A stretch of DNA of 25,464 bases from a virus: positions 1-25,464 of IMG/VR virus record IMGVR_UViG_3300034146_000024, one strand, 5' to 3'. The translations under genes were made by a program, and so were the position numbers. The notes below the pieces were generated by a model that was not told where the DNA came from, ran no database searches, and was given only the letters and a program-made list of their open reading frames with translations. Within the stretch, counting starts at the first letter, position 1; each line of letters begins with the position of its first letter. This document shows positions 4,082 to 12,467 of the stretch, piece after piece.

Positions 4082-4632
4082 CAGCTCCCGCTCCCTTCGG
4101 CAGCGGCCAGAACGGCTTCCCAGTCGATCTCGGCCGCGGCGAGCTTCGACGGCATGTCCGGAGCTTCGAGGACGGCGCGCTTCGCCCGCATGCGCACGCC
4201 CTCGATCGCGCTGCCGATCCGCTCCCAGCGCGCCGACGCGGCGAGCACCCTGGCGGCCACGGCGGCCATGTCGATGCCCATCGCCTCGGCCTCGGCCGCC
4301 ATCATCGGGAAGGAGGCCGGGTCGGCGTCCGGCGCCCAGGCCTTCGCCTCGGCATCCTTGCGGAGGTAGGTCATTTCCTGACCCGGAGAGACGGTGATGA
4401 AGCGGCAGCGCACGGCGCCGGCCGAGGCGTCGACCTGGGCGTGGAGCCGATCGTGGAGCGGCTGCCAGTCCTCCTCCCAGTGGCCCTCCGCCCACCGCCG
4501 GGGCGCGTCCCAGAACCCCTCCGGAAGAACCGCCACCAGCTCCGGCTCATAGCCTTCGGCGCCGAAGACGAACTGCTCCGGCCGGCCGTCGCTCCCGAAG
4601 ACGACGTGCGTGGGGTTCTCGGAGCCCGTCAT
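4081..4632 (-). CDS. Tail-fibre-associated protein, possible assembly factor
   Basis: This 183-aa protein starts at ATG 4632, coupled to the receptor-binding gene by TGATG. It contains FITVSPGQEMTYLRKDAEAK at about residues 78-97. This resembles the core of small proteins encoded directly after phage tail fibres, where a T-Y-x-x-K-x-x-E-A pattern recurs. The rest is Ala- and Trp-rich helix. From position and motif a role in fibre folding or attachment is likely. It has no transmembrane or enzymatic features. The family name is not certain. Confidence 0.55.
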   Translation of the reverse strand: MTGSENPTHVVFGSDGRPEQFVFGAEGYEPELVAVLPEGFWDAPRRWAEGHWEEDWQPLHDRLHAQVDASAGAVRCRFITVSPGQEMTYLRKDAEAKAWAPDADPASFPMMAAEAEAMGIDMAAVAARVLAASARWERIGSAIEGVRMRAKRAVLEAPDMPSKLAAAEIDWEAVLAAAEGSGS

Positions 4633-11000: not shown

Positions 11001-11698
11001 GCGGCATCCTCGAGCTTCTCCTCGGCTTGCCCTGCGCTCATCGCGAGCATGCCGAGGACGGTCACGGCGGCCAGCACCATCGACCCGAACGGGCCCGCGA
11101 AGAAGCCGGCAACGCCGGCCCCCTTGCCGCCCATCATCTGCAGCGCGCTCGCGGTCTGACCGCCCTGCTGCGCCAGAACGATGAGCGGGTTCACGCCCAA
11201 AGCGAGCTGCTGGGTGATGTCCTGGACCTGGAAGCCCAGTTGCTGGTAGCCGACCTTCTGCTCGCCCAGAGAACGCACCTGCTCCCGGCCAGCGCGCTTC
11301 ATCTTGTCGGACGCCGCCGTGTAGGCGCTGCCGGCGCGTTCGGTGAACATCGCGGCATGCTCGGCGTCGATGACGCCGGCCTTCTGGAGCCGGCTGATGT
11401 CGGCCAAGTCCTGCATGTAGCGCCGCATCGGCGCTCCCGCTTGGTCGTAGGTCTTCTCAAGGCGGGAAAGGATCGCCTCGAGTTGACCGGCAGCGCGGCC
11501 CTCCCCGTCGAGCGCCGCTGCCGTCTGGCGCGCCGCCTGCCCCGCCTGGGCGCTGGCGCCGGCGAGCTGGGCTGAAGCCTGACCGGCGGCCAGAGCCTCC
11601 TGCTTGACGTCGCGGAGAGCCGCCGTTGCCGGCGCGACCTGGCCGACGAGGCCGCTGCCGTCCGCGGTGATGCGGACGCCGATGACGAGATCGGTCAT
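8024..11698 (-). CDS. Tail tape measure protein
   Basis: This 1224-aa protein sets tail length and is ejected during infection. Residues 151-186 carry the family signature (YQQLGFQVQDITQQLALGVN, then PLIVLAQQGGQTASAL) of the prophage tape measure type (TMP_2-like). A hydrophobic segment lies at about 196-222 (GFFAGPFGSMVLAAVTVLGM). Long Glu/Arg/Lys coiled-coil stretches fill about 400-720. A Gly-rich membrane-active zone (GSAAGPIGAVVGSLVGGLIG) lies in the C-terminal half. The start ATG 11698 overlaps the stop of the GT chaperone frame (ATGA). It is the longest gene in the window and its place after G/GT is canonical. Confidence 0.92.
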   Translation of the reverse strand: MTDLVIGVRITADGSGLVGQVAPATAALRDVKQEALAAGQASAQLAGASAQAGQAARQTAAALDGEGRAAGQLEAILSRLEKTYDQAGAPMRRYMQDLADISRLQKAGVIDAEHAAMFTERAGSAYTAASDKMKRAGREQVRSLGEQKVGYQQLGFQVQDITQQLALGVNPLIVLAQQGGQTASALQMMGGKGAGVAGFFAGPFGSMVLAAVTVLGMLAMSAGQAEEKLEDAARGADSFGAAQSLLGQVMDLTTGKITNQNEVLREYIRLTALAGLQKAQKAESEAREGLLQSSYTPSMPMMTPGSTGGVTAPGRVAGGGNLTSELRSLAERYAENRVAGGIEQVRRELEALVSSKKTGGQSLTDLLPKFLELGVARNDQQAQQAVIDALDGKGLDPRLAKPGPKVRERRPRADNGAERLEEFGEDASSRLAGIAGRFADQPKAFEQARRALDEIDDLVDDIRRKKPLNLDELLADAEEAKTTVREGLIRGLAEPFEKQKQLVDRAREAMSALGQVADDFTAKKPPGWEGFLDQIDEARQKVQDGLNRPFAEFMRDQQESLQIQRLVNQGRDDEAEALQIILQLQQQMGPLDEKRKEAILASVQARRAEAREMEILQEKQQAYLDSLEDFRDIITDILSGDIKAILDTPKRLIESFKQLSAKVLFERLFGDAFRKLKDQVSGTNIVKDASVRMAAAVDSVAKDLKSFGRSLREAEAEVRGEPLPPQEGGEAPPAGDGDDVVITASRYPKDPAEFVKHIVTELLEGLLGKRVGEAFGRIAGQAIEGAAIGSMVGGVTKALGMRTSTTGSMVGGALGNVAGEALKEGITGVFGKALGSAAGPIGAVVGSLVGGLIGGAIRGHKTGSASIGMVDGQMGVTGTSGNSSKYRTAASGMGDSVVGVLEQIAAQFGGSLTGSPKVSIGIRDGNYRVDPTGRGNTRKKKGAVDFGEDQAAAEAYAALDALRDGAVTGLSAAVRKALTGSDDLQKALKEALKVDELETLLGGVDAELAKTFKAFERQAAERKRIAEKYGFDLVKLEEVNARERAKIFEDLIKRNVGAIQQLLQDMDFGDLFEGSAAEQRQKLLLEIAQAEADTRAGVEGAGDKVASLRRRLLELSREAFGTAGEEYAADRSSTRSAAEELIRLENERVKAAHDAQLAANAKLDQGNDLAEETNQLLSEVVSVTRATRELLASIFGGGSSPPPASGGSGGSTSRLVDMMGQRAL

Positions 11699-12030
11699 GC
11701 CCGCGCCGCCATCGTCTCGATCGCCGCCAGCTCCATGGTTCTGACATCGGTGAGCAGTTGCGGCTTCATCTCGATCCCAAGCATGCGCGCGGTCGGCTCG
11801 ATCGCGGCGTAGTCAATGCCCAGGCGGGTCCCCGTCATCGCGTGGTACCGCCACTGGGTGTCCAGCGCGAAGAAAAGGCCGACCGCGTCCGCCTCGCTGG
11901 CGGTGACCTCGACCTCCTCCTCACTGGCCGGCCGGCGCCGGGGCAGCTGCGCCGCCCTGGTCAGCTCGTCGTCGGCCGCAGCTTCGGATCCGCCGCGCCC
12001 GCCGGCCCAGCGGCGCGCGACGGCCTTCAG
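11695..12030 (-). CDS. T part of the G-T tail assembly chaperone, made by -1 frameshift (DUF1799-like)
   Basis: These 111 codons lie in the -1 frame relative to the G-like gene and open directly at the slippery site, reading LKAVARRWAGG. The C-terminal part, DAVGLFFALDTQWRYHAMTG followed by TRLGIDYAAI, fits DUF1799, the usual T partner. There is no ATG, GTG or TTG with a ribosome site at its beginning; the first in-frame ATG is deep inside the conserved motif. It is therefore expected only as a fusion to G. In lambda, GT binds the tape measure and recruits tube subunits. The open frame reaches further upstream only as Arg-rich shadow. Confidence 0.8.
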   Translation of the reverse strand: MKAVARRWAGGRGGSEAAADDELTRAAQLPRRRPASEEEVEVTASEADAVGLFFALDTQWRYHAMTGTRLGIDYAAIEPTARMLGIEMKPQLLTDVRTMELAAIETMAARA

Positions 12031-12467
12031 TTTCCCGACCGCACGTCCTTTTCTCCGGCGCGGCAGGCGACATAGGCCCTGACACAGGCCTGGAAGATCC
12101 CGCCGGGCTGGTTCATCAGCAGGCGGATATTCTCCGGCTCCCATTTGAGCGTGTCGCCGTTCTCCGCCGCGACGCCCCGCCAGTCGACGGCGAGGCGCTG
12201 GACGAAGTCGGCGTAGAAGCCGGAAAGCATCGTCCGCTCCAGTTCCTTGCGTTTTTCGTCCGTCTCCGCCTTCGCAGCATCGGCGGCCTGACGCGCCTTC
12301 TCCGGCAGCGCGGCCGCCTCGGTGAGGAGGGCGACATGCTCGTCCTCGGTGTGGAGCTGGAAGCGAAGCTCGATCTTGTTGGTGACGACCTCGCCCTCCT
12401 CGGTGACGCCGGGGAAGGTGACCGGCCACCAGGCGCGGGCGTTTGGAACGATACGGTAGCCGGTCAA
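12027..12467 (-). CDS. Tail assembly chaperone, G-like
   Basis: This 146-aa protein lies between the tail tube and tape measure genes, the position of lambda gpG. It begins with a beta-like part (VTNKIELRFQLHTEDEHVAL). A helical Lys/Glu/Ala region follows (ARQAADAAKAETDEKRKELE), then KWEPENIRLLMNQPGGIFQA. The stop TGA follows directly on the heptamer GGGAAAC. The start is TTG 12467, with AAGGGGA about 6 nt upstream; no better start is near. It is expected to coat the tape measure protein before tube assembly, together with its frameshifted longer form. Confidence 0.8.
   Translation of the reverse strand: MTGYRIVPNARAWWPVTFPGVTEEGEVVTNKIELRFQLHTEDEHVALLTEAAALPEKARQAADAAKAETDEKRKELERTMLSGFYADFVQRLAVDWRGVAAENGDTLKWEPENIRLLMNQPGGIFQACVRAYVACRAGEKDVRSGN
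12030..12036 (-). promoter_or_regulatory. Programmed -1 ribosomal frameshift site GGGAAAC
   Basis: On the coding strand the zero-frame codons are TCG GGA AAC TGA, so the heptamer G GGA AAC has the X-XXY-YYZ form in the correct frame, next to the stop. A -1 slip re-pairs both tRNAs as GGG AAA and continues with CTG AAG into the T frame (11695-12030). Lambda uses GGGAAAG at the same gene junction. Confidence 0.85.

Follow-up and report, generated by a model that had tools for sequence, protein, structure and literature searches.

The window analysed here is the whole of a linear virus record of 25,464 bases (IMGVR_UViG_3300034146_000024), a metagenomic fragment. Its minus strand carries, in order, a tail protein gene (13411-12479), a G gene (12467-12027), a T domain (12030-11695) and a tape-measure gene (11698-8024). 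The tail protein is probably the major tail protein, as judged from the gene order, a match to phrog_290 (E = 4e-16, annotated 'minor tail protein') and a homologue that is 68% identical and lies at the equivalent position in the relative L003. The tape-measure protein was identified by matches to TMP_2 and to tape-measure PHROGs. It is the expected client of G and of a G-T fusion, and the tail protein is the expected partner of the T domain.

The G gene encodes a G-like tail assembly chaperone of 146 aa in the zero frame, from a TTG start to a TGA stop. Read directly, its 3' end is ...CGG TCG GGA AAC TGA, giving the C-terminus R-S-G-N. The match of G to Phage_TAC_4 (PF08748) was 0.1 bit short of the cut-off (21.0 versus 21.1 bits, E = 4e-4), and the same family was matched at E = 0.01 in two of 14 relatives. 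An AlphaFold model of G (pLDDT 90) matched the structures of phage tape-measure chaperones, among them the short and extended chaperones of Serratia phage Scapp (129 and 236 aa); comparison of the model with the PDB returned no match. Gene order and predicted fold agree, and both fit a protein resembling the tape-measure chaperones. By gene order, families and fold, a G-like chaperone gene is located between the tail-protein and tape-measure genes, the arrangement of the G-T kind.

The T domain lies in the -1 frame relative to G and would comprise 111 residues after a slip. The frame runs CTG AAG GCC GTC GCG (LKAVA) and then enters DUF1799 (PF08809), which was matched at E = 1.2e-10 and 41.8 bits against a curated cut-off of 26; phrog_680 was matched at E = 1e-19. 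No solved structure matched the AlphaFold model of T (pLDDT 80). The -1 frame is conserved with relatives, and third codon positions vary most in the comparison of T sequences. The stop codon of T (TGA, 11697-11695) overlaps the ATG of the tape-measure gene (11698) as ATGA. The Shine-Dalgarno match preceding this start (window 11690-11700) is weak (-4.8 kcal/mol), and the overlap with the T stop was also seen in many related loci; translation of the tape-measure gene might be coupled to ribosomes that have shifted into T.

Slippery heptamer and starts in the T frame

The heptamer G GGA AAC occupies 12030..12036 (minus strand) in the zero-frame register, and the TGA of G (12027..12029) adjoins it. 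A sequence-only reading had placed GGGAAAC in this register directly ahead of the stop and had the -1 frame continue at once into a DUF1799-like domain; its coordinates are right, on the minus strand, and the PF08809 match bears out the domain. GGGAAAC occurs twice in the window, with 2.5 occurrences expected, and the heptamer by itself is not rare. What goes beyond chance is its register, position and conservation, rather than its mere presence.

The same reading had given T no start codon of its own. This holds near the junction, where the first start codon downstream is at T residue 65, inside the domain, but not for the frame as a whole, which is open far upstream and has its nearest start codons within G (ATG 12144 and GTG 12429). 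The open frame and these codons would allow T to be translated independently from a start within G. Neither position is kept in relatives, however, and no obvious ribosome-binding site precedes 12144. In six relatives (L006, L014, L020, L021, L025 and L035) the -1 frame has a stop 2-10 codons before the heptamer and no start codon between the two. Independent translation would also leave the conservation of the heptamer unexplained, and we consider it extremely unlikely. Homologues with a separate start for T, which would have spoken against a frameshift, were looked for, and no conserved start of this kind was found among the relatives compared.

Conservation among DUF1799 loci

L003 is a distant relative, picked up by its tail protein, and shares heptamer, stop and 3' element with the window. 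From the heptamer on, 47 of 50 nt match between L003 and the window; protein identity is ~60% for G and ~64% for T. A search with a DNA pattern recovered 14 viral stretches; in 12 of them a G-like ORF ended with the heptamer in register, with the limit that the 14 contain repeats (L009 has the sequence of L003, and L016 that of L014). The other two, L013 and L017, were rejected as chance hits. Searches with only the protein sequences of the window's G and T recovered no loci in viral contigs, the exact 21-base pattern had no match in genome contigs, and a DNA similarity search against phages and plasmids had none. A looser DNA pattern and T-domain profiles did recover loci.

An unbiased set was gathered by the T domain, with the heptamer never used. 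Genome contigs were searched with the T profile, as were 398 genomes of one order, and PF08809 was run on 385 genomes of one class and on 398 genomes of the phylum. Removal of near-duplicates left 55 non-redundant DUF1799 loci. In 55/55 loci, a long zero-frame ORF carried an in-register XXXYYYZ at its end, at the G-T junction, counting any right-frame XXXYYYZ ahead of the domain, so that a few calls (e.g. L099, L108) could be chance. The heptamers were AAAAAAC (38), GGGAAAC (15), AAAAAAT (1) and AAAAAAG (1). Because a random canonical heptamer is expected at ~0.4% per codon by our own estimate, the pattern as a whole is not a product of chance. The alignment with related phages that the sequence-only reading had proposed as a check thus has its answer, since the heptamer and the frame relation were kept throughout the set.

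In the named phages Medea1, Kintu, Silvergun and CUB19, the site is GGGAAAC with the stop. These isolates bear on whether the split is an artefact, that is, a single G/T ORF broken by an assembly error or by gene decay. The metagenomic origin of the window is compatible with such a break; it is contradicted by the recurrence of the split, the heptamer and the stop across dozens of independent genomes as well as in the isolate phages, and this explanation retains next to no probability.

In the Klebsiella, Enterobacter and Pectobacterium DUF1799 phages L019, L022, L023 and L024, the end of G reads C_CAA_AAG or T_CAA_AAG, which is not a canonical XXXYYYZ. At L026:3418-3747, the zero-frame ORF before GGGAAAC does not look like the G proteins of other loci for the most part, as though a frame break in G lay further upstream. 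The records of the named phages L019-L025 give G and T as separate genes or leave T unannotated (ATCEA23), and some of them name both 'tail length tape measure protein' (PHROG 569, 680); within the stretches examined, no record annotated a G-T fusion.

Abutting stop and 3' hairpin

The zero-frame stop adjoins the heptamer in 46 of the 55 loci (34 TGA, 8 TAA and 4 TAG). In a set of 45 loci, 41 had the abutting stop compared to 19.6 expected from the T residues and the codon use of each locus (z = 7.6); in a separate phylum-wide set it was present in 22 of 27 loci, compared to 11.0 expected (z = 5.3). An Arg at the second T position is encoded by AGG or AGA in 9 of 11 cases, whereas these two make up 8% of Arg codons elsewhere; next to an abutting TAA or TAG, Leu is encoded by the rare codon CTA. 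These comparisons lend evolutionary weight to a role for the abutting stop, which the sequence-only reading had guessed may tune the ratio of products. The absence of any distance between heptamer and stop is distinctive, because in the PRFect data sets an average of 26-36 nt separates the site from the stop downstream (PMC10885494).

The conserved CTGA also has the form of a stop-start overlap, and ribosomes might stop at the TGA and restart in the -1 frame at the overlapping CTG (C-TGA), giving free T and no fusion. CTG is a poor start codon, however, and the codon at this place is CTA, not a start codon, in 8/45 loci, while some loci are without any abutting stop. Reinitiation also gives the conserved XXXYYYZ heptamer no role, and on these grounds it is very unlikely.

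The sequence-only reading was right as to the heptamer and the stop but missed a hairpin on their 3' side. This putative stimulatory RNA hairpin (11990..12023, minus strand) has its first stem base 6 nt after the heptamer; its outer stem pairs 12023-12015 with 11998-11990, and its inner stem 12013-12008 with 12004-11999. Folding energy 3' of the heptamer was compared with that of sequences recoded synonymously to encode an identical T peptide. Because dinucleotide shuffling of a single sequence is too weak in this GC-rich DNA, synonymous shuffles were applied across many loci; by dinucleotide shuffling of the window sequence alone, the hairpin was unremarkable. Against synonymous recodings, the window hairpin had z = -2.2. 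Over the 45 loci, the mean z started at -1.8 for the first T codon and had weakened to -0.3 by codon 8; further along T and along G it was about +0.1 to -0.5. The 27 further loci had z of -0.9 to -1.1 at the junction versus -0.1 to -0.5 elsewhere. The loci in these sets are partly related, and the combined hairpin scores overstate their independence.

The stem starts mostly 3-8 nt 3' of the heptamer. In the window's own group, 95% of the cells of the outer stem are paired, with changes of C-G to A-U and of G-C to A-U, and both pairing and covariation exceed column shuffles and all slid controls. In other groups the register of the hairpin differs, which suggests that it is the structure, and not a single ancestral sequence, that has been kept. 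The comparisons point to selection for a stable structure that follows the heptamer by a few nt, though not in every homologue: several phylum-wide loci (e.g. L080-L086) show none. The hairpin is located where a -1 stimulator is expected, and its putative role is stimulatory. An Rfam search of the window returned no match. At L061:1802-1847 (-), an uninterrupted 17-bp hairpin (CCCGGCACTGGGCTGGCG...CGCCAGCCCAGTGCCGGG) begins 12 nt after GGGAAAC-TAG and lies within the T coding sequence.

The hairpin also bears on transcriptional realignment, in which RNA polymerase would slip on a run of identical bases and some mRNAs would encode the fusion. The A-rich run AAAAAAC of many relatives would suit such slippage. 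The window's GGGAAAC has runs of three only, which are far too short; the mechanism is cited for runs longer than 7 A in the GeneTack study (PMC3711429). The ribosome is indicated instead by the set spacer of the hairpin and by the in-frame XXXYYYZ, and polymerase slippage is exceedingly improbable.

Probable frameshift mechanism and known systems

Frameshifting between G and T is a textbook case. From the heptamer, its register, the stop, the hairpin and the -1 coding frame, all of them established by comparing sequences, we infer that ribosomes slip at this junction with some efficiency, that the hairpin and the stop may stimulate or tune the slip, and that G and G-T have distinct roles. It is very probable that G and T are joined by programmed -1 ribosomal frameshifting, as in the phage G-T kind. 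The lambda-like G-T interpretation of the sequence-only reading is thus supported by the comparison of DUF1799 loci, in which heptamer and frame were kept and a conserved T start was lacking. In its favor, 6-7% shifting was measured with reporters of two HK97-like tail chaperone genes (PMC3711429). Against it, AAC-ending heptamers are less shifty than AAG-ending ones in E. coli (A_AAA_AAC compared to A_AAA_AAG, in passages of PMC5009743).

Most ribosomes would read G and terminate at the TGA after GGA-AAC, producing the 146-aa chaperone. A minority would move one base back on G GGA AAC and re-pair on GGG AAA, with Gly-Asn already incorporated. They would then read CTG AAG ... and produce a 257-aa G-T fusion with the junction RSGN-LKAVARR. 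By analogy with lambda, G would bind the tape-measure protein and the rarer G-T would recruit the major tail protein. The slip is most likely a standard -1 tandem slip assisted by the hairpin, and the adjoining stop may add a pause that favors it.

Tentatively, the abutting stop could be an active part of the signal, with the ratio of G to G-T, and hence tail assembly, dependent on the release-factor activity of the host; we regard this as possible and somewhat doubtful. Once Asn had been added, the ribosome would move on to place the stop in the empty A site, with the hairpin blocking ahead, and with slow termination the tRNAs for Asn and Gly would have long enough to slip back. If true, this would be a -1 counterpart of the release-factor-sensitive RF2 frameshift. 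Alternatively, the stop that follows the heptamer may do no more than terminate G cleanly.

The predominance of AAC may have a basis in host tRNAs. A single Lys tRNA reads AAA and AAG in E. coli, according to passages of PMC5009743. A tRNA-Lys(CUU) was found in 8/8 alphaproteobacterial genomes (G001, G054, G165, G263, G383, G463, G604 and G778), and tRNA-Lys(UUU) was also matched in six of these by a strict pattern. Because a dedicated tRNA-Lys(CUU) is present, AAG may be less slippery, or not slippery, in such hosts, perhaps explaining AAC. The idea is only a lead, since phages of Pseudomonas, Xanthomonas and Acinetobacter use AAC too.

DUF1799-type proteobacterial prophages and phages, a large and diverse group, have in common a compact signal of a heptamer (almost always ending in AAC), a touching stop and, in many, a hairpin, with the stop and hairpin conserved at the nucleotide level beyond the needs of the protein. 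This offers a simple annotation rule for G-T fusions that are split or missed in databases, and a natural system for the effect of an A-site stop codon on -1 slipping.

Lambda G/GT resembles the window in gene order, in its G-like chaperone, in a -1 heptamer near the end of G and in a T ORF that overlaps the tape-measure start. Lambda T is not a DUF1799 protein, unlike the window T. The sequence-only reading had lambda use GGGAAAG at the same place; the lambda heptamer is indeed GGGAAAG, but its G stop lies 15 nt further on, and the same script found no hairpin excess there. The 2016 review counts certain tailed phages among shifts seemingly without stimulatory signals and describes the lambda shift as being without stimulators, in the passages concerned (PMC5009743).

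Pseudomonas phage D3 likewise has G and T between the tail protein and the tape measure and a hairpin after the heptamer, but the heptamer is GGGAAAG and the stop is 18 nt away. The hairpin following GGGAAAG near 4440 in D3 (L110) is stronger than that of synonymous shuffles (z = -2.6), for which reason classical G-T sites may also have 3' stimulators. The HK97 tail chaperone genes also lie between the tail protein and the tape measure; our own scan found no canonical in-register heptamer at the site in HK97 or N15. E. coli dnaX combines a heptamer with a 3' stem-loop stimulator (PMC3711429), and differs in its upstream Shine-Dalgarno-like stimulator, for which no enrichment was found among the DUF1799 loci tested.

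The pre-tape-measure chaperone genes of the Caulobacter phages Colossus and phiCbK have GGGAAAC and AAAAAAC as their respective G-T sites (PMC3556154), as do haloarchaeal HCTV-1 and HCTV-2 (PMC5009743). All four are alike in having a slippery site at the junction, and the relevant passages of these two sources do not mention an abutting stop or a 3' hairpin. GGGAAAC at a G-T junction is therefore already known from Colossus and HCTV-1. The narrow lambda-type signal consists of GGGAAAG, a distant stop and no 3' stimulator, whereas the window has GGGAAAC, an abutting stop and a hairpin. Judged by these sequence features, the window signal is one of the broad G-T frameshift kind, and not lambda's in the narrow sense.
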